A stretch of 25,239 nucleotides of DNA from a virus, in IMG/VR virus record IMGVR_UViG_3300010368_000098, positions 1-25,239 of that record. One strand, written 5' to 3'. Shown in pieces: positions 5,059 to 25,239 of the stretch; within the stretch, counting starts at the first letter, position 1, and every line of letters begins with the position of its first letter. The position numbers and the translations under genes were made by a program. Under the pieces are notes generated by a model. It made no database searches, had not been told where the DNA came from, and saw only the letters and a list, made by a program, of their open reading frames with translations.

Positions 5059-6598
5059 AGCAGCAACAGACAGATCACCCCGGCGTCGCAAGCAGCCAAC
5101 GACTGAGGCTTTGGCGGGGTTGAGTTTAGATTTTTCGGAAAGTCCAACAGTATGGGAATTTTTGCAAGACGACAGTTTCGTGCGTGGATTGATGGGGCCG
5201 GTGGGATCTGGCAAAACATTCGGTTCGTTAGCGGAAGTGATGTTGAGGGCGGTGAAACAGGAGCCATCGCCGATAGATGGGATCAGATATACTCGGTTTG
5301 CAGTTATAAGGAACAGCTACCCAGAGCTACGCACGACCACGATTAAGACGTGGCAGGAGTTATTTCCTGAGAATGTTTGGGGGCCGATGCGCTGGTCGCC
5401 GCCTATTACACATCACATCAAGCTGCCGCCGCGTGATGGCGCGGCTGGGCTTGATTGTGAGGTGATCTTTTTGGCGCTGGATCAGCCTCGCGACGTGCGG
5501 AAATTGTTGTCGTTAGAGTTGACCGGCGGTTTTATTGATGAGGCGCGAGAGTTGCCAAAGGCTGTGGTTGATGGCTTGACATCGCGTGTCGGTCGTTTCC
5601 CGACTAGGGCGAATGGCGGTTGTACTTGGCGCGGCGTGTGGATGAGTACCAACCCGATGGATAGTGATCACTGGTGGCATCAGTTAGCCGAGAAAAATCC
5701 TATTCGCGGAAAGTATCCTTGGAAGTTTTACAAACAGCCCGGCGGTGTAGTTGAGGGAACGAAAGAGCATGAGGATGCTATATTCTCGGCTGATAAATAT
5801 TGGATCAACAACCCGAAGGCCGAGAACGTAAATAATTTACCGCCCGGTTATTACGAACAGCAGTTAGCGGGCAAAAGCATTGACTGGATCCAGTGTTACG
5901 CTGGGGCGCAGTATGTTTATGTGCAGGACGGCAAGCCGGTCTGGCATGAGTTTGTTGATAGCATGATGTCGGCTGACGTTCACATTGAGCCGGGTTGGCC
6001 GGTGCATATTGGGCTTGACTTTGGTTTGACGCCTGCGGCTGTCTTTGGGCAGAAGATGCAGAATGGCCGGTGGCACGTTGTGCATGAGCTAGTGGCGTTT
6101 GATATGGGTCTGGAAAGGTTTTGCCATCATTTGATGGCTGACATACAACAGCACTTTCCAAAATCAGATGTATTGATCTGGGGTGATCCGGCTGGTGTAA
6201 AACGTGATGAGATTTTTGAGGTGACGGCGTTTGAGCATTTACGCACGATGAACCTTCACGCTAGGCCAACCAGCACCAACGACTTTATGGTGCGGCGCGA
6301 GGCCGGTGCTATGCCGATGAACAGGTTGATTGATGGTAAGCCGGGTCTGCTGGTTAATCGCTCTTGTGTCAAGACGCGCAAATCTTTGGCTGGTGGTTAT
6401 CATTTTAAACGTATGGCGGTGGGTGCGGGTCAGGAACGGTTCCGCGATGTGCCTAATAAAAACCAGCACTCGCACGTTGGTGATGCGTTTGGGTATTTGA
6501 TGCTGGGGGCTGGTGAGGTGCGCAGTATTACACGCAACAGCCAGTTTAGTAATCAGTTTAAGCAAGCCACTGCTAATATGGATTTTAATGTCTTTTAA
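5045..6598 (+). CDS. terL: Terminase large subunit (packaging ATPase and nuclease)
   Basis: 517 residues from ATG 5045, chosen over ATG 5042 because AGAGGA (5034-5039) sits 5 nt upstream. Residues 1-20 are basic. The ATPase domain has Walker A GPVGSGKT (51-58), a Walker B GGFIDEA (161-167) with the catalytic Glu, and a coupling-like STNP at 201-204. The nuclease domain (about 315-490) carries the three acidic residues of the RNase H-like fold: D325 in HIGLDFGLTP, D381 in IWGDPAG and D480 in HSHVGDAFGYL. The protein is expected to cut concatemers and drive DNA into the prohead through the portal. Length and motif order match podovirus terminases. The subunit lies well before the portal, whereas in T7 the terminase genes are at the far right end. 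Confidence 0.97.
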   Translation: MARARAATDRSPRRRKQPTTEALAGLSLDFSESPTVWEFLQDDSFVRGLMGPVGSGKTFGSLAEVMLRAVKQEPSPIDGIRYTRFAVIRNSYPELRTTTIKTWQELFPENVWGPMRWSPPITHHIKLPPRDGAAGLDCEVIFLALDQPRDVRKLLSLELTGGFIDEARELPKAVVDGLTSRVGRFPTRANGGCTWRGVWMSTNPMDSDHWWHQLAEKNPIRGKYPWKFYKQPGGVVEGTKEHEDAIFSADKYWINNPKAENVNNLPPGYYEQQLAGKSIDWIQCYAGAQYVYVQDGKPVWHEFVDSMMSADVHIEPGWPVHIGLDFGLTPAAVFGQKMQNGRWHVVHELVAFDMGLERFCHHLMADIQQHFPKSDVLIWGDPAGVKRDEIFEVTAFEHLRTMNLHARPTSTNDFMVRREAGAMPMNRLIDGKPGLLVNRSCVKTRKSLAGGYHFKRMAVGAGQERFRDVPNKNQHSHVGDAFGYLMLGAGEVRSITRNSQFSNQFKQATANMDFNVF

Positions 6599-7070
6599 CT
6601 GGCGTCAAGACTTATCTAGCAATCAAGCTGTTACTATTGTGCCTTTTCATTGGGGTCACGCAATGCTGGCAGAATTAAGGCCGATGGATAAGGAAAATTT
6701 TGACACTATCCCTAATTATATTGAGTTGTTGAAAGAATATGGTCACGACGATTTATCTTGCACGGCGATGGTAGACGGCAAGGTCGCTTGCTGTTTTGGA
6801 GTTTTTAAACATTGGCCGGGTGTGGCAGAGGGTTGGATGATGACGACTGATAAGGTTGCAACAAATCCTATATCGCTTACGAGGGGTGCTATTAGATATT
6901 TCGATAAGATTGCTATAATACTTAAATTAAAAAGATTACAGCTTACTGTAGACTGCAATAATTCGTTTGCAATCAACTGGGCAAATGCGTTAAAATTCAC
7001 ACCAGAGGGCGTGTTGAAACAATACGGCCCAACCGGCAATGATTATGTGATGTATGCGAGGTATTTTTAA
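6588..7070 (+). CDS. T7 gp13-like internal/assembly protein (GNAT-like fold)
   Basis: 160 residues from ATG 6588, overlapping the terminase stop by 11 bp. The pattern HAMLAELRPMDKENFDTI, then MVDGKVACCFGVFKHWPGVAEGWMMTTD, a long helix with RGAIRYFDKIAI, LTVDCNNSFAINWANALKF and a final VMYARYF follows the acetyltransferase-like fold of T7 gp13 and its DUF2833 relatives. In T7 gp13 is needed for virion assembly. The acetyl-CoA loop motif (Q/RxxGxG/A) is not obvious, so catalytic activity is doubtful. Placement right after terL and before the portal is usual for marine podoviruses. An ordinary GNAT acetyltransferase is the alternative. The ribosome binding site is weak, suggesting translational coupling. 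Confidence 0.8.
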   Translation: MSFNWRQDLSSNQAVTIVPFHWGHAMLAELRPMDKENFDTIPNYIELLKEYGHDDLSCTAMVDGKVACCFGVFKHWPGVAEGWMMTTDKVATNPISLTRGAIRYFDKIAIILKLKRLQLTVDCNNSFAINWANALKFTPEGVLKQYGPTGNDYVMYARYF

Positions 7071-7291
7071 TGGGTAGTCTTTTTGGTAGATCGAAAGCTC
7101 CGGCGCCCGATCCAGAGTTGAAGGCAGCGCAAGAGCGTCAACAGCAGCGCCTTGATGCGCAAGAACAGCAAAAAATGGCCGCAATTGCAGCGCGTAAACA
7201 AGCGCGTATGGTGGGTGGCAAGCGTATGTTGTTGTCTGCTGATCGTCCAGATGCAGAACTTGGGATTACCAAAACAACACTTGGATCATAA
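7070..7291 (+). CDS. Small helical phage protein, function unknown
   Basis: 73 residues; the ATG shares a base with the preceding stop (TAATG). An N-terminal GSLFGRSKAPAPDPEL leads into a long charged helix rich in Gln, Ala, Arg and Lys (AAQERQQQRLDAQEQQKMAAIAARKQARMVGGKRMLL), probably coiled coil, and a short C-terminus with GITKTTLGS. Proteins of this shape are common just upstream of the portal in marine podoviruses, but I know of no assigned function. The position suggests a minor head or head-assembly component. Confidence 0.85.
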   Translation: MGSLFGRSKAPAPDPELKAAQERQQQRLDAQEQQKMAAIAARKQARMVGGKRMLLSADRPDAELGITKTTLGS

Positions 7292-7301
7292 GGAAAAAGC
7301 T

Positions 7302-7343
7302 ATGAATAAGAAAAAAGGCAAAGGCAAGGGTTACGGTAAGTAA
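7302..7343 (+). CDS. Possible 13-residue basic microprotein
   Basis: ATG 7302 opens a reading frame of only 13 codons, MNKKKGKGKGYGK, before TAA. It has its own ribosome binding site, AAGGA at 7290-7294, at good spacing, and its stop shares bases with the start of the next gene (TAATG), the same coupling used by its neighbours. Without it there would be a 51-nt gap in a tightly packed operon. It may be a true Lys/Gly-rich peptide or just a translational relay for the downstream gene. Too short for any homology judgement. Confidence 0.5.
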   Translation: MNKKKGKGKGYGK

Positions 7344-7504
7344 TGCCAGAAAAAAAAGAAGTCTGGGATAAGAAACGCCCAAAGGGTTTGGGGAAATCTA
7401 AACCTTTATCGTCAGCAAAAAAACGTTCTGCAATGAGAGCGGCTAAAAAAGCTGGCCGCCCTTATCCAAATCTCATTGACAACATGAGGGCAGCGCGTGA
7501 CTAA
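7343..7504 (+). CDS. 53-aa Lys-rich basic protein of marine phage type
   Basis: 53 residues from ATG 7343 (TAATG junction). The sequence begins MPEKKEVWDKKRPKGLGKSK, continues with PLSSAKKRSAMRAAKKAGRPYPNL and ends in IDNMRAARD. The blocks VWDKxRPKxLGKSKxL and AGRPYPNLIDNM are, from memory, recurrent in short proteins upstream of the portal in marine phages; their function is unknown. The protein is highly positively charged and small enough to bind DNA or capsid interior, but nothing demonstrates this. It overlaps the following GTG-started gene by 8 bp. Confidence 0.85.
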   Translation: MPEKKEVWDKKRPKGLGKSKPLSSAKKRSAMRAAKKAGRPYPNLIDNMRAARD

Positions 7505-7772
7505 GAAGGCACATCAGGCTCCGGGTGGTGGCTTGAATGAAGCTGGTCGCAGACATCACGAAGCTAAAGACGGCGGCGACCTAAAGCGCCCGGTTAAGAC
7601 TGGCACTGGCCCGCGCCGCGTTTCTTTTGCTGGCAGGTTCGGCGGTATGGCTGGCCCTGAGAAAAAGCCGGATGGCTCGCCCACTAGATTAAAAAAGGCA
7701 CTGAGCGCGTGGGGCTTTGGGTCAAAGCAAGCTGCCAGAAATTTTGCGAAGAGGCACAGAAAAAATGCGTAG
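7497..7772 (+). CDS. DUF6321-like basic protein (GTG start)
   Basis: 91 residues. The start is GTG at 7497, the only start codon ahead of the conserved N-terminus, with GAGGG (7485-7489) 7 nt upstream; it overlaps the previous stop. The protein has GGLNEAGRRHHEAKDGGDLKRPV, then RRVSFAGRFGGMAGP, then KPDGSPTRLKKALSAWGF. These blocks (GGLNxxGR, LKxPV, R--SFxxRFxGM-GP, G-PTRL--AL-AWG) are those of a phage family I recognise as DUF6321. Its function is unknown. Net charge is strongly positive. It overlaps the portal by 8 bp and is very likely co-produced with it. Confidence 0.88.
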   Translation: MTKKAHQAPGGGLNEAGRRHHEAKDGGDLKRPVKTGTGPRRVSFAGRFGGMAGPEKKPDGSPTRLKKALSAWGFGSKQAARNFAKRHRKNA

Positions 7773-9330
7773 TGTTGAGGAAATCCTAAAACGTCACGAT
7801 ATTGCGCAGCGCCGCAAAGACAATTGGCGGCAGATCTACGAAGATTGTTATGAATTTGGCTTGCCTCAACGCAATCTTTACGATGGTTATTATGAGGGCG
7901 GTGGATCTCCGGGGCAGAATAAAATGGCCCGCGTGTTTGACAGTACCGCGATTAATGCCACTCAGCGTTTTGCCAATCGCATCCAGTCGGGCTTGTTCCC
8001 GCCCTATGCGCCGTGGTGCCGGTTAGAGCCGGGGCCAGAAATCCCAGAAGATCGGCAGATTGAGGCGCAGATGGCGCTGGATATGTACAGCGACACAATG
8101 TTTAGCGTTCTGCGCCAGTCTAATTTTGATTTGGCTATGGGTGAGTTTTTGCTAGATCTGGCAGTTGGCACGGCCTGCATGTTAGTGCAGCCCGGCGACG
8201 AGCTAACGCCGATCCGCTTTACTGCAGTGCCGCAATATCTAGTCGCAATCGAAGAGGGCGCACACGGCAAGGTTGATAATGTTTACCGCCGTATGCGGAT
8301 GAAGGGCGAAGCGATTATCCAGCATTGGCCTGACGCAGAAATCCCAGAGCGTATGCAGCGCATGATTGACGAAAAGCCAACCGAAGAGATTGAGCTTATT
8401 GAGGCAACGCTATACGAGCCTGAGATGGGTGAGTTTTGCTATCACGTTATTTGGCCCGAGGGTAAGGCTGAGTTATTAAAGCGCTACATGAAATCGTCTC
8501 CTTGGATTGTGGCGCGTTATATGAAAGTGTCGGGTGAGGTTTATGGCCGTGGGCCGCTAGTTACCGCTATCCCAGACATCAAGACACTAAACAAAACGCT
8601 AGAGCTATTGCTTAAAAATGCCAGCCTGTCGATTGCCGGTGTTTATACCGCCGCCGATGACGGCGTTCTAAACCCGCAGGCAATCCGCATTGCGCCGGGT
8701 GCTATTATCCCAGTGGCGCGCAATGGCGGGCCGCAGGGCGAGAGCTTGCGCATGTTGCCGCGCTCCGGCGACTTTAACGTGTCGCAGATTATCATTAACG
8801 ATTTGCGCATGAATGTTAAAAAGATTTTGCTTGATGACACGCTGCCGCCGGACAATATGAGCGCAAGGTCTGCGACAGAGATTGCAGAACGCATGAAAGA
8901 GTTGGCGCAGAACCTTGGATCTGCCTTTGGTCGCTTGATTACTGAGACAATGGTGCCGCTGGTTGGCCGTATCCTTTATGTGATGGATGAGCGCGGTTTG
9001 ATTGAGATGCCTTTGCGCGTCAATGGCCTTGAGGTTAAAGTAACCCCGGTCAGCCCGATTGCGCAGGCTCAGAATATGGGGGATATCGAGAAGATTATGC
9101 AGTGGGTGCAGATGTCAACGGCTCTTGGGCCAGAGGGTCAGATGGCGGTCAAGACTGGCAGCATTGCAGATTATGTTGCCGACAAGCTAGGCGTCCCAGC
9201 AGAATTACGCACCACGCCTGCTGAACGTCAGCAAATTATGGAGCAAGCAATGCAAGCCGCACAAATGGCGGCGCAGGCAGAGGCGGGTGTAGAGCCACAA
9301 GGTGAGGCACCCACAGAAGGGATGATCTAA
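7765..9330 (+). CDS. Portal protein (T7 gp8-like head-tail connector)
   Basis: 521 residues from ATG 7765, preceded by AGAGG at 7750-7754; T7 gp8 is 536 residues. The N-terminal RRKDNWRQIYEDCYEFGLPQRNLY, the DSTAINATQRFANRIQSGLFPPYAPWCRLEPG block, SPWIVARYMKVSGEVYGRGPLVTAIPDIKTLN and the ARSATEIAERMKEL helix are hallmarks of the Head-tail_con family. Twelve copies should form the vertex ring through which DNA is packaged and ejected, and to which the gp11-like adaptor docks. The C-terminus is a Gln/Ala/Met-rich helix (QQIMEQAMQAAQMAAQAEA), consistent with the flexible barrel seen in gp8-type portals. The stop shares a base with the next ATG. Confidence 0.97.
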   Translation: MRSVEEILKRHDIAQRRKDNWRQIYEDCYEFGLPQRNLYDGYYEGGGSPGQNKMARVFDSTAINATQRFANRIQSGLFPPYAPWCRLEPGPEIPEDRQIEAQMALDMYSDTMFSVLRQSNFDLAMGEFLLDLAVGTACMLVQPGDELTPIRFTAVPQYLVAIEEGAHGKVDNVYRRMRMKGEAIIQHWPDAEIPERMQRMIDEKPTEEIELIEATLYEPEMGEFCYHVIWPEGKAELLKRYMKSSPWIVARYMKVSGEVYGRGPLVTAIPDIKTLNKTLELLLKNASLSIAGVYTAADDGVLNPQAIRIAPGAIIPVARNGGPQGESLRMLPRSGDFNVSQIIINDLRMNVKKILLDDTLPPDNMSARSATEIAERMKELAQNLGSAFGRLITETMVPLVGRILYVMDERGLIEMPLRVNGLEVKVTPVSPIAQAQNMGDIEKIMQWVQMSTALGPEGQMAVKTGSIADYVADKLGVPAELRTTPAERQQIMEQAMQAAQMAAQAEAGVEPQGEAPTEGMI

Positions 9331-9599
9331 TGAACACCGACGGTTGGGACAGTTTACAAAGTATAAATCCAGATATCGCAGAAAAGCAGCAGGTTGATAA
9401 AGATGATATTGACCGGCTTTATCTGCGTGTATTCGCCAGTGATGATGGGGCTAAGTTGCTCACCCATCTACGATCACTGACAATAGAGCAGCCAACGTGG
9501 TATCCCGGCGAAGAGGCCAGCCACGGCTATGCTCGCGAAGGCCAAAATAGTTTGGTCAGAGAAATCGAGCGACGCATGAAAAGGGCTAGAAACCTATGA
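9330..9599 (+). CDS. Bbp19-like small phage protein
   Basis: 89 residues; TAATG junction with the portal. The central part, YLRVFASDDGAKLLTHLRSLTIEQPTW, and the end, GYAREGQNSLVREIERRM, match the short Bbp19 family of phage proteins, whose signature is a helical N-terminus followed by P-W-P-----SHGYAREGQ-SLV--I. It is regularly found between portal and scaffold in podoviruses. A structural or assembly role is presumed but not demonstrated. It overlaps the scaffold gene by four bases (ATGA). Confidence 0.87.
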   Translation: MNTDGWDSLQSINPDIAEKQQVDKDDIDRLYLRVFASDDGAKLLTHLRSLTIEQPTWYPGEEASHGYAREGQNSLVREIERRMKRARNL

Positions 9600-10366
9600 A
9601 TGAAACTGAGGGTCTGTTGGCCGAAGCTCAAGTTGAGAGCGACGATAACCAACAGCAAACAGAAGAGGCAATCTCACACGTTAAACCTGACGGCGAGACT
9701 GTTTCTAGCGACGCAGTAGCGTCAGAGGAAGCAACCGAAAAACCTGAGTGGTTGCCAGAAAAATTCAATAGCGGTGAAGATCTGGCAAAGGCTTATTCTG
9801 AGTTGCAAAAAAAGTTTTCTCAGGGCAAGCACAAAGCACCAGAGCAATACGATGAGAGCGTATTTGCCGATGCCGGTATTCCAGAAGATGATGAGCTTTA
9901 CAGCACTTACAAAAACTGGGCTAAAGAAAACGGCATTAGTCAATCGGCTTTTGATGAGCTAGCCGGAAAGTTTATTTCTATGGCTGGCGAGGAAACAGCC
10001 GCCGCAGAAGTTTCATACAAAGAAGAATATGAAAAACTGGGCAACAATGCTGATGCTGTGATTAAGTCAATGACTGACTGGGCATCTAGCCTAGTGCGCA
10101 AGGGTGTTTGGTCGCAGGATGATTTTGATGAGTTCAAGATTATGGGTGGTACAGCCCAAGGCCTAAGAGCTTTGCAGAAAGTGCGCAGCTATTACGGCGA
10201 CAAACAAATCCCGGTAGATGTTGCGCCGATGGCCGGTGCGCCGTCTAAAGAAGAATTGATGGCAATGGTCGGAAAGCCAGAATATCAGACAGATCCAGCC
10301 TATCGAATAAAGGTTGAGAAAATGTTTGAACAAGCGTTTGGCAACGACGATTACGCACCAATTTAA
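9596..10366 (+). CDS. Capsid assembly scaffolding protein
   Basis: 256 residues, starting within the previous stop (ATGA). It is highly acidic, with a disordered N-terminus rich in Glu, Asp and Gln (residues 1-50), then EKPEWLPEKFNSGEDLAKAYSELQKKFSQ, a sequence typical of podovirus scaffolds, long helices in the middle, and a C-terminal helix that would be expected to contact the capsid. Scaffolds of this T7 gp9-like type are present in proheads and leave before DNA filling. Position immediately before the capsid gene supports the call. Transcription of this gene can be separated from capsid by the hairpin and promoter that follow. Confidence 0.92.
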   Translation: MNETEGLLAEAQVESDDNQQQTEEAISHVKPDGETVSSDAVASEEATEKPEWLPEKFNSGEDLAKAYSELQKKFSQGKHKAPEQYDESVFADAGIPEDDELYSTYKNWAKENGISQSAFDELAGKFISMAGEETAAAEVSYKEEYEKLGNNADAVIKSMTDWASSLVRKGVWSQDDFDEFKIMGGTAQGLRALQKVRSYYGDKQIPVDVAPMAGAPSKEELMAMVGKPEYQTDPAYRIKVEKMFEQAFGNDDYAPI

Positions 10367-10371
10367 ACCAG

Positions 10372-10399
10372 TGACGGCGGTTGTTTACAATTGCCGTCA
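10372..10399 (+). terminator. 12-bp hairpin after scaffold, overlapping the capsid promoter
   Basis: TGACGGCGGTTG (10372-10383) pairs over its full length with CAATTGCCGTCA (10388-10399), two pairs being G-T, around a TTTA loop. What follows is TTATATATATAAT, not a pure T run, so termination would be partial. The loop and first right-arm bases are the -35 of the promoter at 10384-10412. The element may thus act both as attenuator of read-through from scaffold and as an operator over the promoter. Confidence 0.6.
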
Positions 10400-10412
10400 T
10401 TATATATATAAT
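10384..10412 (+). promoter_or_regulatory. Near-consensus sigma-70 promoter for the capsid gene
   Basis: TTTACA (10384-10389; one mismatch to TTGACA), a 17-bp spacer and a perfect TATAAT (10407-10412). The start of transcription would fall near 10418-10420, leaving a leader of about 126 nt before the capsid ATG. A dedicated strong promoter is expected for the most abundant structural protein. It uses host-type signals, in line with the absence of a phage RNA polymerase in this window. Confidence 0.65.
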
Positions 10413-10419
10413 CCCTATT

Positions 10420-10511
10420 GACAGACAATCACACCTGACCTGTCGCAAACGCTTGGGGGCGTAGCGTATATGCCCAAGCCGCAGCCCGGAAAGGATACCT
10501 GCTAGGCGCTA
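10420..10511 (+). ncRNA. Candidate structured 5' leader of the major capsid mRNA
   Basis: Consecutive potential helices follow the predicted transcript start: GACAG (10420-10424) with CTGTC (10440-10444); GCTTGGG (10451-10457) with CCCAAGC (10473-10479); GCAG (10481-10484) with CTGC (10499-10502); and TAGCG in the loop of the second helix (10462-10466) with CGCTA (10507-10511), which would form a pseudoknot. About 20 unpaired nt and the Shine-Dalgarno AAAGGAATAGG then precede the ATG. There is no reading frame here. The structure could stabilise the mRNA, set capsid yield or bind a protein. It is a manual pairing, not a computed fold. Confidence 0.5.
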
Positions 10512-10544
10512 ATCGTGTTTTAACTTTTACAAAGGAATAGGAAA

Positions 10545-11378
10545 ATGGCTGTAGGCATTTCCAACGCTTTTGTGCAGTTGTTCGATGCGGAAGTGAAGCA
10601 GGCCTATCAAGCATCACGTGCTTTGGCTGGCGTTACTCGCGAAAGAACAAGTGTCGAAGGCAATCAGGTGAAGTTCCCGAAAATCGGGAAAGGCACCGCA
10701 ACAGTCCGCGTACCGCAGACTGACGTTACCCCTCTCAACGTGACTTACTCGCAAGTCACAGCAACAATGTCCGACTATATCGCTGCTGAATACAGCGACA
10801 TTTTCTCACAGCAGAAGGTCAATTTCGACGAGAGACGTGAGCTTGTCGCTGTTGTGGGGGCTGCTATCGGGCGTCGTATGGATCAGCTTGTCATTGATGC
10901 GCTCAATGCAGCTTCCTCACCATCGACTGTGGCAACATCTGTTGGTGGCGCAGGCACAAACATGAACCTTGCAAAGCTGCTTGCAGCTAAAAAGGCTCTG
11001 GATGTGAAGAACGTACCGGCAGAAGGTCGTTGCATGATCATTCACGCAAACGGCTTGTCAGCATTGCTGGACGAGACTGAACTGACCAGCAGCGATTTCG
11101 CTACTGTCAAGGCTCTCTCAACTGGCGAGATCGACACCTTCCTTGGCTTTAAATTCATCACACTAGGTGATCGTGATGAAGGTGGCCTGCCTCTCCCATC
11201 AACCCGCACTTGCTTTGCGTTCCATCGCGATGCAATCGGTATGGGTATCGGCATGAACCAAAAGTCTGAAATCAACTACGTTCCTGAGAAAACGTCGTTC
11301 CTAGTTTCTTCAATGTTCTCCGCTGGTGCGGTTGCCATTGATGACGATGGTATCGTCAAAATCTCAGCGACTGAATAG
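10545..11378 (+). CDS. Major capsid protein
   Basis: 277 residues from ATG 10545 with a strong ribosome binding site (AAAGGAATAGG, 10531-10541). The N-terminus FVQLFDAEVKQAYQASRALAG, the VEGNQVKFPKIGKGTATVR block, RRMDQLVIDALNAASSP, RCMIIHANGLSALLDE and a C-terminal FLVSSMFSAGAVAIDDDGIVKI are typical of podovirus capsid proteins with the HK97 fold. It is shorter than T7 gp10A (345). It should form the icosahedral shell built on the scaffold encoded just upstream. It has its own promoter, hairpin and long leader, and a strong terminator-like hairpin follows one gene later, so capsid expression appears separately controlled. No frameshift extension is evident. Confidence 0.93.
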   Translation: MAVGISNAFVQLFDAEVKQAYQASRALAGVTRERTSVEGNQVKFPKIGKGTATVRVPQTDVTPLNVTYSQVTATMSDYIAAEYSDIFSQQKVNFDERRELVAVVGAAIGRRMDQLVIDALNAASSPSTVATSVGGAGTNMNLAKLLAAKKALDVKNVPAEGRCMIIHANGLSALLDETELTSSDFATVKALSTGEIDTFLGFKFITLGDRDEGGLPLPSTRTCFAFHRDAIGMGIGMNQKSEINYVPEKTSFLVSSMFSAGAVAIDDDGIVKISATE

Positions 11379-11393
11379 AAAGGAGTTTAGAAA

Positions 11394-11666
11394 ATGGCTT
11401 TCTCTTCAGCAGGATGGAACGTGATTGGCGCAGCTAAAAAAGGCAACGCGCCAAGCATGTACACTTACACATCAGCAGACGCAATTGCGACTGTGAACAC
11501 AGCCGGATACTTCAACGACCTGTCAGACACAGTGGCAGTCGGTGATGTGATCTTTGTTCACGACAGCGCGACCCCAACAATGTCAATCGTTGTTGTTCTG
11601 TCAAACGCATCTGGTGTTGTTGACGTATCAGACGGCACGGCTGTATCAGTCGCTGACGCAGACTAA
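11394..11666 (+). CDS. Small capsid-associated (possible decoration) protein
   Basis: 90 residues, 16 bp after the capsid stop, with AAAGGAG at 11379-11385. It has an N-terminal SSAGWNVIGAAKKGNAPSMYTY, then TSADAIATVNTAGYFNDLSD, then VGDVIFVHDSATPTMSIVVVL and a threonine/valine-rich end. Such proteins follow the capsid gene in many marine podoviruses; the beta-rich content and NTAGYFND/GDVI pattern suggest a small beta domain on the capsid exterior or a head-fibre base. The placement in the capsid transcription unit, before the hairpin at 11674, implies high expression like a decoration protein. The function is inferred from position. Confidence 0.85.
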   Translation: MAFSSAGWNVIGAAKKGNAPSMYTYTSADAIATVNTAGYFNDLSDTVAVGDVIFVHDSATPTMSIVVVLSNASGVVDVSDGTAVSVADAD

Positions 11667-11673
11667 CCTAAGT

Positions 11674-11693
11674 GGGGCCGGGCAACCGGCCCC
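11674..11693 (+). terminator. Perfect GC hairpin downstream of capsid unit
   Basis: GGGGCCGG (11674-11681), GCAA tetraloop, CCGGCCCC (11686-11693), followed by CCTTTCCCTATTTT. The stem and GNRA loop are very stable; the T tract is interrupted, so it is probably a partial intrinsic terminator that lowers transcription into the tail genes relative to capsid, or an mRNA 3' stabiliser. Confidence 0.7.
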
Positions 11694-11717
11694 CTTTCCC
11701 TATTTTGGAGTGGCGCA

Positions 11718-12332
11718 ATGGCGGCTGGTGATACCAAACTATCAATTTGTTCTGATGCTTTGATTATGCTGGGCGCTGCGCCTTTATCATCATTTGCCAC
11801 TGGCACCGACGAGGCGCAGGTGGCTGATCGTCTTTATGACGATGTGCGCGACACGCTTTTGATGCAATATGCCTATTCTTGGTCTGTGCAAAAAGTTAAA
11901 ATAGCGCAGCTTGCCAGCACACCAATCAATGAATGGAAATACACTTACGCGCTACCCGGCGACATGCTTGGCAATCCAAAGGCTGTATTTAACACAAGCT
12001 CGGTTGGCTCGCGTCCTGTCAGAGATTTTGAAATCTACAACCTTGGCTTATACACAAATTACGAAGAGGTTTGGATTGACTACCAATTCCGGCCAGAGCC
12101 TGCCATATTCCCGCCTTACTTTGTGCGGCTGTTGAAGATGGCATTGGCTGCGGAGTTTGCCGAGCCAATCACAGACCAAATCACTAAGGCTGAGTATTAT
12201 CACGGCAAGGCTTATGGCTCGCAGTCTGAAAATATGCGCGGCGGTTTAGTTCGCGTTGCAATGAATATTGACGGCGCTGACCGCCCGGCACAAACAATAC
12301 AAGAGTTCCCGCTTTCAGACATAAGGTTCTAA
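11718..12332 (+). CDS. Tail adaptor / tail tubular protein A (T7 gp11-like)
   Basis: 204 residues (T7 gp11 has 196), with GGAG at 11707-11710 before ATG 11718. The protein opens with KLSICSDALIMLGAAPLSSF and continues EAQVADRLYDDVRDTLLMQYAYSWSVQ, ALPGDMLGNPKAVF and ITDQITKAEYYHGKAYG, the standard pattern of the gp11 family: ICSDALxxLG, Y, LL--Y-WSFA-like helix and Y-LP-D. Twelve subunits join the portal to the nozzle. The next gene, gp12-like, starts two bases after the stop. A strong hairpin separates it from the capsid unit. Confidence 0.95.
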   Translation: MAAGDTKLSICSDALIMLGAAPLSSFATGTDEAQVADRLYDDVRDTLLMQYAYSWSVQKVKIAQLASTPINEWKYTYALPGDMLGNPKAVFNTSSVGSRPVRDFEIYNLGLYTNYEEVWIDYQFRPEPAIFPPYFVRLLKMALAAEFAEPITDQITKAEYYHGKAYGSQSENMRGGLVRVAMNIDGADRPAQTIQEFPLSDIRF

Positions 12333-12333
12333 T

Positions 12334-14541
12334 ATGAGCCGGATCATCCAGATACAAAATGATTTTACCGCTGGGGAACTAGACCCAAAACTAAGAGCGC
12401 GTAACGATATAGCCCAATATAAATCTGGCCTCAGTACCGCTCGCAATGTCACTGTGCAGCCGCAGGGCGGCGCAAAAAGACGTGATGGCAGCAAGTTTAT
12501 TACGCAGCTAGATAGCGGCGCTGCTAATGCAGTGCGGATGGTGGGTTTTGAGTTTAGTGTCTCAGACAGCTATATGCTGGTGTTCACGCCCGGCAAAATG
12601 TATGTATTTAAAGATGGCGCTTTAATTACCAACATTAATGGCAGCGGTAATGATTTTTTAACTGTCGCCAGCTTAACTGCCGCAATTCTGCCCGAAATGA
12701 ATTGGGTGCAATCAGCCGACACTGTTATTGTCGTGCATGAAGATTTGACGCCAATTAAAATTGTGCGTGGTGCGACTGATAGCGACTGGACTGCCAGCGT
12801 TATTACTTTTAACTTTATTCCTAAATATGCTTACACACTTAATATTAACACCCCACAGTTTACCATTACGCCCAGTGCGACCAACGGCAACATTACAATT
12901 ACAGCGTCAGCCGTAACGACAGACAATGGAACCGCACAAGCTGGCACAAGTAACACTATTACCTTGAAAGCCGCGACTAGCTACACTAGCGATGACCAGT
13001 GCAATGGGTTGTCGTTGCATTTGACTGCTGGCACTGGGTCTGGACAACATCGACACATATCTGACTATGATGCCACCACAAAAATAGCGACAGTGTTTCC
13101 GGCGTTTACTACAGCGCCAGATAACACGACACAATATTCAATAAAAGCATTTGGCGCTGATAGTGTTGATGAATACTTTAATGCTGCAAATGGTTTTGGC
13201 CGGGCGCGTATAACAGAATATGTAAGCGACACATCTGTAAAGGCATATGTTGAAGTGCCATTTTTTGACACAAGTGCTTTGGTGTCAGGTGATTGGGAGC
13301 TTGAATATGGCTATGAGGATGTGTGGTCTGCGGCTAGAGGCTACCCACGGTCAGTCACTTTTCACGAGGGGCGTTTGTATTTCGGCGGCACTAAAAGCAG
13401 GCCGTCTACATTGTTCGGGTCTAGGGTAGCAGACTTTTTTAATTTTAACCCCGGCGAAGCTCTTGATGATGCGGCTGTTAGCGCCACCTTGGATACTGGT
13501 ACATTTAACGCTATTATTGATATTTTCTCAGGCAGAAACCTGCAAGTGTTTACCAGTGGTGCTGAGTTCTTTGTGCCGCAGTCGCTTGACGCACCTATTA
13601 CGCCGAGCAATTTAATTGTAAAACAGCAGACTGCTTTTGGCATGAAGCCGGGCATCCGCTTGCAAAACGTAGATGGCTCGACCTTGTTTATCCAGCGTCA
13701 GGGCAAGGCGCTACAAGAGTTCTTGTTTAGTGACGCAGTGCAAGCTTACACATCTTCTAAAATTTCTTTGCTGTCATCGCATTTGTTAAAGAACCCAGAA
13801 GAGATGGCGGTGCGCGTTGCAACGTCAACAGATGAGGGTGATCGGCTAATGATCGTCAATGGCGATGATGGCACGATTGCTTGCTATACTTTGTTGCGCA
13901 GTCAGAACGTAATTGCTCCAGCCGAGTGGACGACAGACGGTGAGTATATAAATATCGGCGTTGACGTTGATGACATTTACACTGTGGTCAAACGTACTGT
14001 AAATGGCGCAGATGTTTATTATGTTGAGTTATTCGACACTGACGTTTTAGTTGACTGCGCTCTGACTGGCGGCGCTGCTAGCTCAGTAAACGTGACACAT
14101 CTTGAGGGCAAGACCGTTGACATTATTCGCGATGGGGTAAATGAACCAGCGCAAGTTGTCCCGGCGTCACCCTTTACTGTGACATTTGCCCGGCCAGCCA
14201 CTGCTACCCATCAGGTTGGTTTAGATTTTGCTCTTGAGATTAAAACTCTGCCAGTTGAGCCTAAACTTGCCAGCGGGTCTCTCAAGGGATTTAAGAAGCG
14301 CATATTTGAAGTAAACGCTGAATTGTTTGCCACGCAGTCACTAACTATTGACGGCAAATCTGTGGCGTTCAGAAATTTTGGCGCAAATGTTCTTGACAGT
14401 TCAGTGCAGGAGTTTACTGGGCTAAAGACATTGGGCGGCATTTTAGGGTATACTTACGATGGTCAAATCACAATCGGTCAGGACGTGCCACTAAAAATGA
14501 CACTGCTTGGCTTAGATTACAAAGTTAGTGTAGGTCAATAA
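12334..14541 (+). CDS. Tail nozzle / tail tubular protein B (T7 gp12-like)
   Basis: 735 residues (T7 gp12 is 794). The N-terminus IIQIQNDFTAGELDPKLRARNDIAQYKSGL followed by RNVTVQPQGGAKRRDGSKFI is diagnostic of the family (FxGGExSP-like, Y-GL--N--P-GG---RPG). In the middle are RSVTFHEGRLYFGGTKSRPSTLFGSRVADFFNF and TGAEFFVP, the beta-propeller repeats. Hexamers should form the tail tube below the adaptor. The protein is rich in beta strands and Thr/Asn. No break or frameshift is seen. The next gene starts one base after the stop, at ATG 14543. Confidence 0.93.
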   Translation: MSRIIQIQNDFTAGELDPKLRARNDIAQYKSGLSTARNVTVQPQGGAKRRDGSKFITQLDSGAANAVRMVGFEFSVSDSYMLVFTPGKMYVFKDGALITNINGSGNDFLTVASLTAAILPEMNWVQSADTVIVVHEDLTPIKIVRGATDSDWTASVITFNFIPKYAYTLNINTPQFTITPSATNGNITITASAVTTDNGTAQAGTSNTITLKAATSYTSDDQCNGLSLHLTAGTGSGQHRHISDYDATTKIATVFPAFTTAPDNTTQYSIKAFGADSVDEYFNAANGFGRARITEYVSDTSVKAYVEVPFFDTSALVSGDWELEYGYEDVWSAARGYPRSVTFHEGRLYFGGTKSRPSTLFGSRVADFFNFNPGEALDDAAVSATLDTGTFNAIIDIFSGRNLQVFTSGAEFFVPQSLDAPITPSNLIVKQQTAFGMKPGIRLQNVDGSTLFIQRQGKALQEFLFSDAVQAYTSSKISLLSSHLLKNPEEMAVRVATSTDEGDRLMIVNGDDGTIACYTLLRSQNVIAPAEWTTDGEYINIGVDVDDIYTVVKRTVNGADVYYVELFDTDVLVDCALTGGAASSVNVTHLEGKTVDIIRDGVNEPAQVVPASPFTVTFARPATATHQVGLDFALEIKTLPVEPKLASGSLKGFKKRIFEVNAELFATQSLTIDGKSVAFRNFGANVLDSSVQEFTGLKTLGGILGYTYDGQITIGQDVPLKMTLLGLDYKVSVGQ

Positions 14542-14542
14542 T

Positions 14543-14977
14543 ATGGGTATGGTATCGACAGTATTTTCGGCTTTTATGCAAATTCAAGCTGGCGCTGCGG
14601 CTGCACGAGGTTACGAGCAGCAAGCCACTATGCAGCGTATGCAGGCCAAGACCGATGAGCTTAGATATAGAGAGCAGGGGGTGGCTGTTCTTGACAACAT
14701 TTTGCGCACACAAGCGTCTATTACTGCTAGGGCTGCGGCTGGTGGCATTGACCCATTCAGCGGCAGCGCAAAATCACTTAATCAGTACGCAATGGCGAAG
14801 GGTGCGCAAGAGCTTTACACAACGAGAGAGAGCGGCATCATTGCGCTTAGAACTGGTGATATGCGGGCTGATGTAAGTTTATCACAGGCAAAATCTGAGA
14901 GAATGGGTGCTATGGCAGGCGCGTTTAGCACAGTGGGCAGTTATATGGCTGGGCAAGCTAAGTTAGGGGGAGCTTAA
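14543..14977 (+). CDS. Internal virion protein, gp14-like ejection protein
   Basis: 144 residues (T7 gp14 has 196). After VSTVFSAFMQIQAGAAAARGYEQQA come heptad-like helices (MQRMQAKTDELRYREQGV), then RAAAGGIDPFSGSAKSL, a glycine/serine turn typical of gp14-like proteins (the GxxPxSGS block), and alternating helices ending GSYMAGQAKLGGA. The small Ala/Gly-rich, mostly helical make-up and place between the nozzle and the gp15-like gene fit an ejection protein that forms the outer-membrane pore. I rely on position and the GIDPFSGS block; there is no catalytic motif. Confidence 0.85.
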   Translation: MGMVSTVFSAFMQIQAGAAAARGYEQQATMQRMQAKTDELRYREQGVAVLDNILRTQASITARAAAGGIDPFSGSAKSLNQYAMAKGAQELYTTRESGIIALRTGDMRADVSLSQAKSERMGAMAGAFSTVGSYMAGQAKLGGA

Positions 14978-16695
14978 TGGCTGAACTACCAAGATACCGC
15001 CCATTAGGCGTGACGATACAGCCATTGCCCGGCGTTGATTTTGCTGCGGCTGGTCGTGCTAGAGCGGCCGCTTTTAATGAGATTGCTCGCGGCTTAGATA
15101 TGATGTCTAAATATGCGTATGAGAAGCAACAGTATCAAGCTGCGGCTGAAGGCCAACGATACGGTGCTGAGAAAGCCCCAACGCAAGCGCAGTTAGAAGA
15201 GGCCAAGAAAGAGGGCGCAGATATTGCAGAAATGCTGCCCGGCGATGACTATACGGTTTTTGGACGCGCCGCTAGAAAAACATCGCTTGACATTATTATT
15301 GACCAATCAGAGATGGAAGCGCGTAAGTCGCTGACTGCGTTGCGCCTTGAGGCAGATCAAACTGATATGCCAGCAACAGAACTTAGCGCCAAAATTAATG
15401 GCCTGATTTCTGGATATTCTAGCAATCTTTATGAATTAAACCCTGCCGCCGGGTCTAAGTTTCAAGCGGCTATGTCAACAGTGGGCAACACGGCTCTGCT
15501 GTCGCACTCGCAGTCACTGGCAAAGAAGGCAGAAAAACAGCAAGAGGTTGCTGCGCTTGCTTCTATTGATATGATTGTTAATGAATATGTTGAACAAGAA
15601 ATAAAAGCGGGAACAACATTTAATCAAGAAACTGGCGAAGTTGTTACTATTGATCAAAAGCTTGACTTTTTAAGAGCAAAAATTGCAAGCGAAGGTTATT
15701 ACGTTGGCGATAAGGCATTAGTCAAGCAAGGCCTTGCTGCGTTTGATAAAAAGGTTGTGCAAGTAAAAACTGGTGCGGTTGCAGATTTTGTTTTAGAAGA
15801 CCCGATTAAAAACACTGATGATCTATTACAAGGTAAACAATTAAGCAACCCGCACATTCAAGATATTATAAATAACATGAATGATGCAGAACGCAGGGAA
15901 GCTGTAAAATTGTCTATTGATTTAGCCGATAAGCAGCGCAGCAGAGATGCTCAAATTGAAACAGCTAATAGAAGAAAGCGCGTTGATGCGGTTGATAATT
16001 TGTTGCCAGAAATTGCAGATGCAAAGATTAGGGGCGAAACAGATCGCTTATATGGTTTGCTTGGCAGGCTCAGAGAGTTAGATGGCGCTAAGTATGAAAG
16101 CATTGCGTCTGCCATTCACACTGAGGGCGGTATAGACGACGCAGACGTCGTGGCCGGGCTTAATCGTCTTGCGCTAAACAACCAATTAAGTTTTGAAGAC
16201 ATTAATACAGCCGCTAAAAATAGGCAGATTTCATCATCCACACATCTGCGTTTGCTTAGTGATCTTGAGGGGCAGCGCAATGAAGACTTTAAATTTGCAG
16301 TGGATTATGCAAAAGATGCGCTTGGTTATCCGACAACAAACAAACTGAGCTTTACTGATGAGGAACAACTTGCAGCGCAGCAAGTTGCAAAGCTACGCAA
16401 TGAATTGCGTCTTGCTAAAAGGCGTAACCCTGAACTTGATAGCACAGAGTTTATGATTAAGCGCGTAAAAGAAATACAAGCTGAAAAAACTTACACGACA
16501 GAACAAATTAGCCAAGCTGACGTTGCTGTTAAGGGTCTTGCAATGAAACTAAAGAAGCTTGGTTATTCTGTTGATCGTGACAGCGATTGGCAAGACATTC
16601 AGTCTGCCTTGACGCAAGCTGTATCTGATCAAAAGTTTGATCCACGCGAGGCCGATGGTCTTAAAAAATCATTTACAATATTAGGATCGCAGTAA
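14977..16695 (+). CDS. Internal virion protein, gp15-like
   Basis: 572 residues (T7 gp15 has 747), TAATG overlaps at both ends. Residues 1-45 have the conserved opening PRYRPLGVTIQPLPGVDFAAAGRARAA. The remainder is almost completely alpha-helical with many short heptad stretches and no enzyme motif. In T7, gp15 and gp16 form the ejection assembly that spans the periplasm and drives genome entry; this protein has the right size class and neighbours for that role. The PxGVDF opening is a pattern I know from marine podovirus ejection proteins. Base composition drops in the second half (more AAA, AAT, TTT codons) relative to the capsid genes. Confidence 0.85.
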   Translation: MAELPRYRPLGVTIQPLPGVDFAAAGRARAAAFNEIARGLDMMSKYAYEKQQYQAAAEGQRYGAEKAPTQAQLEEAKKEGADIAEMLPGDDYTVFGRAARKTSLDIIIDQSEMEARKSLTALRLEADQTDMPATELSAKINGLISGYSSNLYELNPAAGSKFQAAMSTVGNTALLSHSQSLAKKAEKQQEVAALASIDMIVNEYVEQEIKAGTTFNQETGEVVTIDQKLDFLRAKIASEGYYVGDKALVKQGLAAFDKKVVQVKTGAVADFVLEDPIKNTDDLLQGKQLSNPHIQDIINNMNDAERREAVKLSIDLADKQRSRDAQIETANRRKRVDAVDNLLPEIADAKIRGETDRLYGLLGRLRELDGAKYESIASAIHTEGGIDDADVVAGLNRLALNNQLSFEDINTAAKNRQISSSTHLRLLSDLEGQRNEDFKFAVDYAKDALGYPTTNKLSFTDEEQLAAQQVAKLRNELRLAKRRNPELDSTEFMIKRVKEIQAEKTYTTEQISQADVAVKGLAMKLKKLGYSVDRDSDWQDIQSALTQAVSDQKFDPREADGLKKSFTILGSQ

Positions 16696-19094
16696 TGAAC
16701 CTAGAGCGAGAATGGGATAAAACATATTACCTCAAGAACTCTGGGCTTGAGGTTGACGCTGTTATGCAAGAGGATGGCACGGTCACCGCGCAAAGCATAG
16801 ACCCAACCGGCAAAACTTTGGGTATGGCTGATGTGTTTGGCGGCGGTGTAAAGCCTGACATTTACGCGCTTTCACAAGCTGCCGGTGCGCCTGTTACTGA
16901 GGCCGAGGTTGCCGGTACTATGGGCGGCGTAGTCCCCGGCGCTGCTATTGGCGCAGCAACTGCTATTCCTGATATTGCGGCTCTGGTTAAGGGCGGTGTG
17001 CAGGCGGCGACTGCCGAAGAGGGTAGCCGCATTGAGGAGTTCTTAAAAGGATTTAGCAGCATCTCTGGCGTCATTGGGTCAGAGAAAGCGTTTGAGCTTT
17101 ATGATGCTGGCGTTGATATGTTGCCAATCAGCGATGAGGCCAAACAAGGTTTGAAGCAAGGCGCATTGGTTGGTGAGGTTATTGGTTTTGGCACTGGCGC
17201 TAAGAAAGGCGCAGAGGCTGTTGGTGGATATGTAGAGGGCGCACCAGCGCGGCTAGAGGAGGCCAAGAGCGGCGTCACGCTTGGTATGGGTGCCGATCCT
17301 ACACAAGTGATTGATGAGGCTATTGTGGGCGTTCAGAAAGCGTTTGGTGGAGCAGGCAAAGTTGATCAAAACAGCCTCCTATCTGAAGTAGGCGAGGCTT
17401 CTATGAAAGACGCGCCACAATCATTTGGCGCTGGGTCTTTTCCGCTAACAAAGGAAAACCTGCAAAAAGCTGATGAAACAACTAAATTATTGGTTTCTAA
17501 AATATTAGAAAAAAACCCAGATGCGGCTATTGGCTTAACAAGAAGTGGTAGCGCCGCTGGCGACAGCAATTATTTAACTGTTAAGACAGCAGACGGCAAA
17601 TGGGGGCAGGTTAGGGTCTCAGATCACGGGACAGGAACCAAACGGATAAATGATTATTTGGATCAATTGCCAATGACCCCACCGCCAGAAGGCAAACAAG
17701 TGTTCGGTCAAATTTCTAGGAAATCATTTGACAATAAAATAGAGAAAATTGTTAATGAGGTTGCCGGTCAAAAGCTGATGGGCGGGGCAAGGCAAGTTGA
17801 AGCAAACCCAAATAGAATATCAACTAGGCTTCCAACCGCAAAGGCAGCAACAGAAGACCCAATTGCGCAGCCACTGCAAATCGGGCTAGATGAAGTTGCG
17901 GCTGATCCTGTTGTGTTTGAGCATAATGTTGGGATTGTTAAAAACTACCCGAACATGACTGAGGCAGAGGCGGCATTGCCGCCAGCCGAGGCTGGTGAGG
18001 CATTTATTGAACACGCAAAAAACAATCTGCTTTGGGTGTTTGACAAAGTGCCAGAGCAAACCAGAGAGCGTTCTAAAAAATGGTATGATGGCGCTAGAGC
18101 AATTACTGACAAATGGTCTGAAAAATACAATCTGCCAGATAGCTCTATTGCCGGTGTTCTTGCAGCGTTATCGCCACAAAAAGATTGGTATATGAATGTA
18201 AGTCTTGCCGAGCGCGTCTTGGATATAATGAGTAACCAACAAGACACAGTATTTTCTAAAGAGATGTTAAAAACTGGTTTGGAAAAATTTAACAAGCCAC
18301 AAGATCAGGCTATAATCAAAGCTATCTCAGAAAAGAAATTATCTGAACTTGAATTGCCAGCAGAAAAAGCTATTTGGCTGCGCCTGCATGATGAGACATA
18401 CGCTGACAGAAGCCATCAAATTGTGTCACCAGAAGGTGATTTTATTGGCACAGCTATGACCGGCAAAGGTGAACCCAAAGGCACAGGCTGGGGATCAATT
18501 GTTGAAATTTCTAAAGCTGTTTCTGCTTTTGAAAGTGGCGGTGATAAAAATGTTTTGACCCCATTGATGGGAACAAAGCACAAGGTTCGCAGTTTCTATA
18601 ATAATATCCTTGATCCTAATGGGCCAAATGGTGACGTAACAATTGACACACACGCTGTTGCTGCTTCTTTGTTGAGGCCGTTATCTGGTCAAGCTACAGA
18701 GGTGCATCACAATTTTGGTAGCAGCCCAGCAAAAGCAAAGCAGGGCGCTGATTGGCTTGGAGCAACTAAGAACTCAGCAAAAACTGGTGTTCAAGGGAAC
18801 TATGGATTGTATGCTGAAGCATACCGGCGAGCCGCAGCAGAGCGCGGCGTTTTGCCTAGAGAAATGCAGTCTATAACTTGGGAAGCTGTGCGCGGTTTGT
18901 TTACTGACAAATTTAAAGGTCAGGCCAAGAATGTAGAGGATGTCAACAATATATGGTACAAATACAGAAAAGGTGAGGTAACTTTAGATGAAGCAAGAAA
19001 TGCAATTGAACAACGAGCAGGCGGCATCAACCCCCCAACTTGGCAGCGACCCAGTGGTGCAGTTGATGAACAAGTACAAAATACCGCTGAATAG
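16695..19094 (+). CDS. Large ejection protein with polyvalent-type enzymatic-looking domain
   Basis: 799 residues, TAATG junction. Residues 1-110 contain a Gly/Ala-rich hydrophobic stretch (about 72-105) that could interact with membranes. Residues 275-330 hold a small module with SAAGDSNYLTVKT and GQVRVSDHGTG (305-314). Residues 435-740 form a helical domain: KWYDGARAITDKWSEKYNLP, GVLAALSPQKDWYMNV (487-502), TKHKVRSFYNNIL (627-639), VTIDTHAVAASLLRP (648-662), NYGLYAEAYRRAAAERG and MQSITWEAVR. The VTIDTHAVAAS block resembles the VDTHxxRV catalytic segment of HhH-GPD DNA glycosylases (endonuclease III). I associate this domain with DUF7178-like phage proteins, with uncertainty. It occupies the place of part of T7 gp16, so it is probably packaged and ejected. 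No lytic transglycosylase motif is evident. Its end is overlapped by the 66-aa gene. Confidence 0.82.
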   Translation: MNLEREWDKTYYLKNSGLEVDAVMQEDGTVTAQSIDPTGKTLGMADVFGGGVKPDIYALSQAAGAPVTEAEVAGTMGGVVPGAAIGAATAIPDIAALVKGGVQAATAEEGSRIEEFLKGFSSISGVIGSEKAFELYDAGVDMLPISDEAKQGLKQGALVGEVIGFGTGAKKGAEAVGGYVEGAPARLEEAKSGVTLGMGADPTQVIDEAIVGVQKAFGGAGKVDQNSLLSEVGEASMKDAPQSFGAGSFPLTKENLQKADETTKLLVSKILEKNPDAAIGLTRSGSAAGDSNYLTVKTADGKWGQVRVSDHGTGTKRINDYLDQLPMTPPPEGKQVFGQISRKSFDNKIEKIVNEVAGQKLMGGARQVEANPNRISTRLPTAKAATEDPIAQPLQIGLDEVAADPVVFEHNVGIVKNYPNMTEAEAALPPAEAGEAFIEHAKNNLLWVFDKVPEQTRERSKKWYDGARAITDKWSEKYNLPDSSIAGVLAALSPQKDWYMNVSLAERVLDIMSNQQDTVFSKEMLKTGLEKFNKPQDQAIIKAISEKKLSELELPAEKAIWLRLHDETYADRSHQIVSPEGDFIGTAMTGKGEPKGTGWGSIVEISKAVSAFESGGDKNVLTPLMGTKHKVRSFYNNILDPNGPNGDVTIDTHAVAASLLRPLSGQATEVHHNFGSSPAKAKQGADWLGATKNSAKTGVQGNYGLYAEAYRRAAAERGVLPREMQSITWEAVRGLFTDKFKGQAKNVEDVNNIWYKYRKGEVTLDEARNAIEQRAGGINPPTWQRPSGAVDEQVQNTAE

Positions 19095-19188
19095 AAAAAA
19101 TTATTTGGATATTGCTTATTTTGGCGAAGCTCCAAAAGAGTTAAGCGCAGAAGAAAAGCTTGAACTGCCAGAGCAGTTTCGCGAGTAA
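18988..19188 (+). CDS. 66-aa gene overlapping the end of the 799-aa gene
   Basis: 66 residues from ATG 18988, preceded by AGGTGAGGT (18971-18979). It overlaps the last 107 bp of the preceding gene in another frame and runs on to 19188. The conserved-looking part lies outside the overlap: KYKIPLNRKNYLDIAYFGEAP followed by LPEQFRE. The pattern Y-IPLTRENYL-LAY-G-PPEEL--E-E-ELP is one I recognise in short proteins of marine phages, usually next to large structural genes. The N-terminus (MKQEMQLNNEQAASTPQLGSD) looks like a disordered extension made possible by the overlap. The function is unknown; association with the 968-aa protein that follows is likely from linkage. Confidence 0.85.
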   Translation: MKQEMQLNNEQAASTPQLGSDPVVQLMNKYKIPLNRKNYLDIAYFGEAPKELSAEEKLELPEQFRE

Positions 19189-19199
19189 AGGATTTAATG

Positions 19200-22103: not shown

Positions 22104-22129
22104 ACTACAGGCAACAAATGGTTTATAAT
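22101..22129 (+). promoter_or_regulatory. Sigma-70-like promoter for the tail-fibre gene
   Basis: TAGACT (22101-22106; four of six match TTGACA), a 17-bp spacer and a perfect TATAAT (22124-22129), in the only sizeable gap (51 bp) in this region. Transcription would start near 22136, 19 nt before the fibre ATG. The -35 overlaps the stop codon of the previous gene. It would let fibre, chaperone and lysis genes be transcribed independently of the ejection genes. Confidence 0.5.
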
Positions 22130-22154
22130 CCCAGAATTGAAATGAGGCAACGCA

Positions 22155-24659: not shown

Positions 24660-24667
24660 GAGTTATT

Positions 24668-24919
24668 ATGATAAAAGTTGTAAATGGTGTCGAGGTTACT
24701 TTAAGTGAAGATGAAATTGCGGCAGTTAATTCAGAAAATGCGGCACAACAAGATTACTTAGTTCGTAATCAGAGAGACTCGCTGTTGCAGCAATCAGATG
24801 TTTACGCACTAGCTGACCGCATTACAGACGCTTGGACTACTTATCGCCAAGCTCTGCGTGACATACCATCACAAGCTGGCTTTCCTTTTAGCGTAACTTG
24901 GCCGACTAAGCCGGAGTAA
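24668..24919 (+). CDS. Tail fibre assembly chaperone-like protein
   Basis: 83 residues from ATG 24668, with AGGAG at 24658-24662; a longer in-frame start at 24602 would lie inside the fibre gene. It opens MIKVVNGVEVTLSEDEIAA and then has VRNQRDSLLQQSDVYALAD and WTTYRQALRDIPSQAGFPFSVTWPTKPE. The RDxLLxxSD, YRQALRDIP, GFP and VTWPTKP pattern is the tail assembly chaperone family found after tail-fibre genes, whose members assist fibre folding or attachment. Gene order directly after the fibre supports the call. Confidence 0.92.
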   Translation: MIKVVNGVEVTLSEDEIAAVNSENAAQQDYLVRNQRDSLLQQSDVYALADRITDAWTTYRQALRDIPSQAGFPFSVTWPTKPE

Positions 24920-24923
24920 AACT

Positions 24924-25100
24924 ATGAACGAAGAAAACAAAGTCATTCTGGATGTTGCTGCTGGCACCGGCACGTTTGCGGCCTATATGGCTATGGTGCC
25001 GGATTTTGTGGCTTTGTTTACCGGGATTTGGGTCTTGATACGCATCATTGAAACCGATAGCGTCAAAGTCATAATCAAAAAGCTACAAGGTCGTGTTTAA
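24924..25100 (+). CDS. Holin-like small membrane protein
   Basis: 58 residues from ATG 24924, four bases after the chaperone stop. A short N-terminus (MNEENKVI) is followed by a hydrophobic region, residues 9-41 (VAAGTGTFAAYMAMVP; FVALFTGIWVLIRII), that could make one long or two short membrane helices split at the Pro-Asp, and a basic tail (KVIIKKLQGRV). The size, topology and place at the end of the structural genes resemble short podovirus holins, which open the inner membrane at lysis. No endolysin is in the window; one may lie just downstream. It overlaps the next gene by 8 bp. Confidence 0.8.
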   Translation: MNEENKVILDVAAGTGTFAAYMAMVPDFVALFTGIWVLIRIIETDSVKVIIKKLQGRV

Positions 25101-25239
25101 AGCAATCGTACTTGCTTGTGCGATAGCAGCCCCAACTGAATGTATTGAGTTTCACGATGTTCGTGGGCCATATGCCACAATAGAGGCTTGTGAGGAACGA
25201 GCGATGACTATGGGCAGAGACATTGGTGAAATGGCTCAC
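25093..25239 (+). CDS. Small exported or membrane-anchored protein, cut by window end
   Basis: 49 codons visible, incomplete at the 3' end. The start is GTG 25093, overlapping the holin stop, with AAGG at 25087-25090. The N-terminus, FKAIVLACAIAAPTEC, looks like a short signal or anchor; then CIEFHDVRGPYATIEACEERAMTMGRDI. Two cysteines (17 and 33) could form a disulfide in the periplasm. The pattern DxRGPYxTxExCxxRAxxM recurs, to my memory, in short proteins after holins in marine phages; the function is not established, but a lysis-accessory role is plausible from position. Confidence 0.75.
   Translation, partial: MFKAIVLACAIAAPTECIEFHDVRGPYATIEACEERAMTMGRDIGEMAH

Follow-up and report, generated by a model that had tools for sequence, protein, structure and literature searches.

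The window examined in this study is a 25,239-nt stretch of viral DNA (IMG/VR record IMGVR_UViG_3300010368_000098), and all positions given here refer to it. The major capsid protein gene is located on the + strand at 10545–11378; its product belongs to PHROG 3437 and is a distant relative of T7 gp10A. Upstream of the gene is a gap of 178 nt (10367–10544), the longest between evident genes of the window, as the preliminary description of this DNA had stated. The hairpin and the near-consensus promoter which that description placed in the gap were also found. Folding gave a 14-bp terminator-like hairpin on the + strand at 10370–10401, 3′ of the upstream capsid-assembly gene. A sigma70-type promoter for the capsid transcript, TTTACA-17-TATAAT, with 11 of 12 matches, lies on the same strand at 10384–10412, and its −35 element falls within the loop and 3′ arm of the hairpin. 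Terminator and promoter are fused in this way in the window (10370–10412) and in the equivalent regions of its clade, the T-rich tail being the promoter spacer. Of 41 distinct relatives, 35 had the hairpin, whose stem occurred in 25 different sequences, and TTTAC was inside it in 27. Another sigma70-type promoter match (11/12), which may be due to chance, was seen at 18289–18316, inside a 799-aa gene (16695–19094).

The distance from the end of the −10 element to the first internal-loop motif of the leader was scored in relatives with a promoter match of at least 9/12, and it was 9–11 nt in all 45. Because of this spacing, the first hairpin of the leader in the window clade, P1, is expected to begin at about +1. 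At the other end of the leader, a Shine-Dalgarno-like AAGGA was identified from the sequence at 10532–10536 (+ strand).

Structure and covariation of the leader

The RNA 3′ of the expected start folds into consecutive helices, as had been proposed, and as a whole stretch it folded better than dinucleotide shuffles (z = −2.7). Because single-sequence folding energy proves little, homologous leaders were sought. Since nucleotide BLAST of the leader region against phage records found nothing, the search relied on protein. The capsid protein yielded 80 loci in IMG/VR, and comparison of their upstream regions showed a common architecture with a drifting sequence.

The window-clade alignment (A2) contained 30 distinct leaders and supported a structure consisting of P1, a pseudoknot with stems S1 and S2, and a hairpin, P3. 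Standard pairs made up 98.2% of the 659 cells, and two-sided changes were present in 11 of the 22 pairs. The covariation was 0.363, compared with 0.194 in shuffles, and when the partners were slid by 1–3 columns only 28–39% of cells were paired. RNAalifold recovered P1, S2, and P3 from A2 when no structure was given.

All of the elements are on the + strand. P1 (10420–10444) has stems 10420–10424/10440–10444 and 10429–10430/10437–10438, which enclose an internal loop of ACAA (10425–10428) opposite a lone C (10439); its helices were 97–98% paired, with two-sided changes in 5 of 7 pairs. The pseudoknot (10450–10475) consists of S1 (10450–10453/10463–10466) crossed by S2 (10457–10461/10471–10475). 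These two crossing helices with short joining loops are those of an H-type pseudoknot, and both covaried: S1 was 99% and S2 98% paired, with two-sided changes in two and three pairs, respectively. The closing pair of S2 was G-U in 14 of the 30 leaders, which marks the + strand as the RNA strand. The AAG following the pseudoknot (10476–10478) was invariant (30/30). P3 (10481–10502) has stems 10481–10484/10499–10502 and 10486–10487/10493–10494, and its lone C (10485) opposite AUAC (10495–10498) is the P1 loop on the other strand. P3 is part of the structure that covaried in A2, and it had two-sided changes in another clade (L220).

The pseudoknot of the preliminary description was drawn differently. 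A pseudoknot is present, but its partners had been misassigned: the covarying pseudoknot is local (10450–10475), whereas the pairing of TAGCG (10462–10466) with CGCTA (10507–10511) was only 79% paired in the 30 distinct leaders, with a covariation of 0.170 versus 0.155 in shuffles. The first bases of that long-range pairing (10462–10466) belong to S1. Two other candidates were rejected. The minimum-energy hairpin GCUUGGG/CCCAAGC had no two-sided change, and one of its pairs was broken in 13 of 30 leaders; in CsrA-type GGA sites, the A was not conserved in group B (GGCUAAC). The search for covariation in homologous leaders, which had been proposed as a check, was carried out and covariation was found, though for another structure and another pseudoknot than those first described.

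Two further clades were aligned, the HTVC010P-like clade (A4, 39 leaders) and the L220 clade (A5, 28 leaders). The HTVC010P-like leaders have two hairpins in the middle and no pseudoknot; they were 98.4% paired with 12 two-sided pairs, in an alignment in which some rows are off by one column at P3 (an alignment, A1, was discarded for such shifts). Without a given structure, RNAalifold found P1, the middle hairpins, and the inner part of P3 in A4. Leaders of the L220 clade have no separate P1; instead, the second loop is re-formed by a stem that encloses P3. This stem covaried (0.432 versus 0.178). Because it rebuilds the same loop, we conclude that the loop is kept rather than the topology. 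Slid controls failed in all three clades.

A shared internal loop tied to one capsid family

One internal loop, G-AYAM-C facing G-C-C, occurs in both P1 and P3, with its strands exchanged between the two hairpins. Three of its bases were present in both hairpins in 30 of 30 A2 leaders: the first and third bases of AYAM, each an A, and the lone C. The loop bases of A4 and A5 agreed almost fully, so that AYAM and the lone C hardly vary across the three clades. The common core of the leader is one or two AYAM/single-C loops closed by G-C pairs, and some leaders have kept only one copy. The pseudoknot, which separates the two loop copies, is specific to its clade and absent from other clades. That the unpaired loop bases are nearly constant while the helices vary points to recognition. 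In Yersinia phage YeP5 (L575), P1 plus P3 are replaced by two tandem P3-type hairpins, at distances of 37 and 99 nt upstream of the capsid gene, with the sequences CAG[C]CCGG..CCGG[ATAC]CTG and GAG[C]CGG..CCG[ATAC]CTC.

A covariance model, R1, detected the element in the window as well as in each of the 78 relatives with an uncut leader; the weakest of these matches (E 0.74) was in a divergent subgroup, where the element was clear by eye. A scan of 30 whole phage records with R1 gave one match each in 23, located at the capsid leader, none in six, and in one (SI2) only a weak off-site match on the opposite strand (E 0.07). In these scans each record had at most one copy, before the capsid gene. 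The SI2 record (“Dunaliella viridis virus SI2”, L317, NC_023841.1) lists an algal host but has a tailed-phage gene order, and its capsid protein is 47% identical to that of the window phage; it is probably a bacterial phage. A second model, R2, which was built from A4 only, matched window-clade members and the leader of Methylophilales phage MEP301. Vibrio phage CKB-S2 has a short form of the element (E about 1e-6). The forms in group C and CKB-S2 consist of P1 and P3 only (66–69 nt), whereas the window form has the pseudoknot besides.

DNA-pattern scans, which are blind to protein, led to more distant capsid clades. The P3 pattern gave 119 matches, of which 85 were 40–65 nt before a capsid gene of the PHROG 3437-type family; the remaining matches look like chance. 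A strict two-hairpin pattern had no match in the genome contigs collection. Among cultured or database phages, a P3-type hairpin preceded the capsid gene in 13 of 23, a somewhat optimistic figure since the descriptor was partly tuned on pelagiphage leaders and then scored, with a wide margin over the controls (0.4 of 23 shuffled; 4 of 342 other windows). The carriers include HTVC010P, Lederberg, HTVC203P, Greip, HTVC100P, Skadi-4, and YeP5. No element was detectable in the relatives Vibrio phages 1.257.O, 1.138.O, and D105, ZP6, and HTVC028P. All seven capsid proteins tested had PHROG 3437 as their best match, and that of the window has distant similarity to T7 gp10A. Two of the database records, OQ414635.1 and OQ414636.1 (L321, L320), apparently have swapped locus tags: the record named Hodr bears EXVC032PBaldr tags and the record named Baldr bears EXVC031PHodr tags.

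These results demonstrated that the leader is a structured + strand RNA, kept by compensatory change and tied to one capsid protein family. It is almost certainly a real, selected RNA element.

Possible functions of the leader

The second loop was at a steady distance from the capsid AUG, with medians of 46, 42, 45, and 38 nt, and the last loop copy was usually 38–50 nt before the AUG. The transcription context was not constant. The window clade has its own promoter, whereas in the HTVC010P-like clade the upstream stop codon abuts P1 and no promoter was seen. In L405–L484 and L120 the upstream gene ends with a stop codon that adjoins or falls inside P1; a terminating ribosome there would cover P1, so that translational coupling is possible. 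The association with the capsid start is preserved even where the association with a promoter is not. This favors a role in how the capsid mRNA is translated or degraded over one in transcription, and the leader probably acts post-transcriptionally on this message.

A trans-acting factor would recognize the paired AYAM/C loops and set the translation or decay of the capsid message. Our best guess for this factor is unassembled capsid protein, whose binding would start at the twin loops and extend towards the ribosome-binding site, and the resulting feedback would couple capsid synthesis to assembly. The exclusive pairing of the leader with one capsid family favors the capsid protein itself, although such pairing could reflect shared descent alone. 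Also against capsid feedback, the element and the ribosome-binding site do not overlap, some leaders have a single loop, relatives without a detectable element manage, and binding of its own mRNA by an HK97-fold capsid protein is not known to us. We therefore name the capsid protein as the binder only tentatively. A more doubtful extension is that the twin loops might be a capsid-protein operator throughout a broad set of T7-like tailed phages, the HTVC010P-type pelagiphages among them.

The leader could instead be a high-expression leader served by the host, which we consider possible but somewhat unlikely. Its folded 5′ end would shield the capsid mRNA from 5′-end-dependent decay or mark a stable processed end, UUUAACUUU and the Shine-Dalgarno sequence would also favor ribosome loading, and a conserved host component, namely the ribosome, an RNase, or an RNA chaperone, would be the binding partner. 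The position of the window-clade P1 at the expected +1 with near-constant spacing fits such a role, as does a layout like that of the T7 gene 10 leader, and a host factor would explain why the loop is constant across hosts while the capsids diverge to about 30% identity. However, stability would require only a plain hairpin and not the near-invariance seen in the loop bases, and a generic booster should spread, whereas the element was found at capsid genes only.

It is unlikely that the leader is a put-like antitermination RNA, which would bind elongating host RNA polymerase and allow read-through of the late operon. HK022 put binds the zinc-binding domain of the β′ subunit of RNA polymerase and suppresses termination; its RNA is ~70 nt long and works without a phage protein (PMC9378689). 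The leader, like putL and putR, is a cis RNA near a phage promoter, and in the window clade right after it. Its pseudoknot-free forms (~65 nt, two stem-loops) resemble HK022 putRNA (PMC9378689), and the two stem-loops with internal loops within about 70 nt that characterize put were found in the group C and CKB-S2 forms. However, put RNAs serve early operons, whereas the leader is present in one copy, always directly before the late capsid gene at a steady distance from the AUG, and in two clades it is inside an operon without its own promoter. The two also differ in internal structure (PMC9378689). In a 6.5-kb stretch of HK022 (NC_002166, 26000–32500), within which the exact put coordinates are unconfirmed, R1 matched only at chance level (11 bits, E 0.68) and R2 did not match. 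Terminator-like sites in window positions 5240–25239 were not above shuffles (24 versus 21.2).

A riboswitch-like leader sensing a metabolite in late infection would account for a compact pseudoknotted fold with invariant unpaired bases, but it is very unlikely, because the gene is always the capsid gene, the pseudoknot is missing from other clades, and no expression platform was seen near the ribosome-binding site. The idea that this region, the largest gap of the window and one with inverted repeats, has no RNA function and is instead a DNA element, such as a cruciform or a site of packaging or replication, or a chance folding in a conserved spacer is extremely improbable given the G-U pairs, the covariation of both crossing stems, the occurrence of one loop on either strand of different helices, and the failure of slid controls in all three clades.

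If the capsid-feedback mechanism is true, free capsid protein of T7-like tailed phages feeds back on its own mRNA via a folded leader. To our knowledge, little is known about post-transcriptional tuning of capsid synthesis in tailed phages, and the leader is a compact and testable entry point to it, a marker for the capsid family, and possibly a strong expression leader. Its shape is more conserved than the surrounding DNA, and the phages carrying it include the HTVC010P-type pelagiphages, which reportedly rank among the most abundant phages in the ocean.

Comparison with known RNAs

Searches of Rfam 15 with gathering and relaxed thresholds gave no family match, either for the window or for ten relatives that represent several clades; the best sub-threshold matches (E 5–7) were on the other strand. 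No description of the leader was found in the open literature, a search mostly without subscription journals, so that absence there is no proof. With covariation in three clades and exclusive association with capsid genes, the original suggestion of an undescribed leader RNA of the capsid mRNA has held up, and the control of capsid yield or mRNA stability that went with it is plausible. From these sequence comparisons the leader appears to be a new RNA family among structured regulatory mRNA leaders.

The T7 gene 10 leader has a similar order of elements: a promoter, a 5′-terminal hairpin, TTTAACTTT, a Shine-Dalgarno sequence, and then a homologous capsid gene. TTTAACTTT occurs in the window at 10519–10527 (+ strand), and the same 9-mer is at the same place in T7, where UUAACUUUA has an enhancer role. 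A 9-nt identity with the T7 leader was reached by 24 of 2000 shuffles, and similar words just 5′ of the Shine-Dalgarno sequence were present in part of the relatives only. The T7 leader (L579) differs in having a plain hairpin, no AYAM/C loops, no pseudoknot, and a promoter for the phage RNA polymerase; the 5′ hairpin of the window, with its conserved internal loop, is not of the T7 type.

Autogenous operators of phage proteins include the T4 gene 32 pseudoknot and the MS2 coat operator. The leader differs from these in belonging to the capsid gene of a dsDNA tailed phage, and its binding by the capsid protein is a proposal. It resembles them in that the site is folded and lies close to where the regulated gene begins, and they are the model for the favored mechanism.
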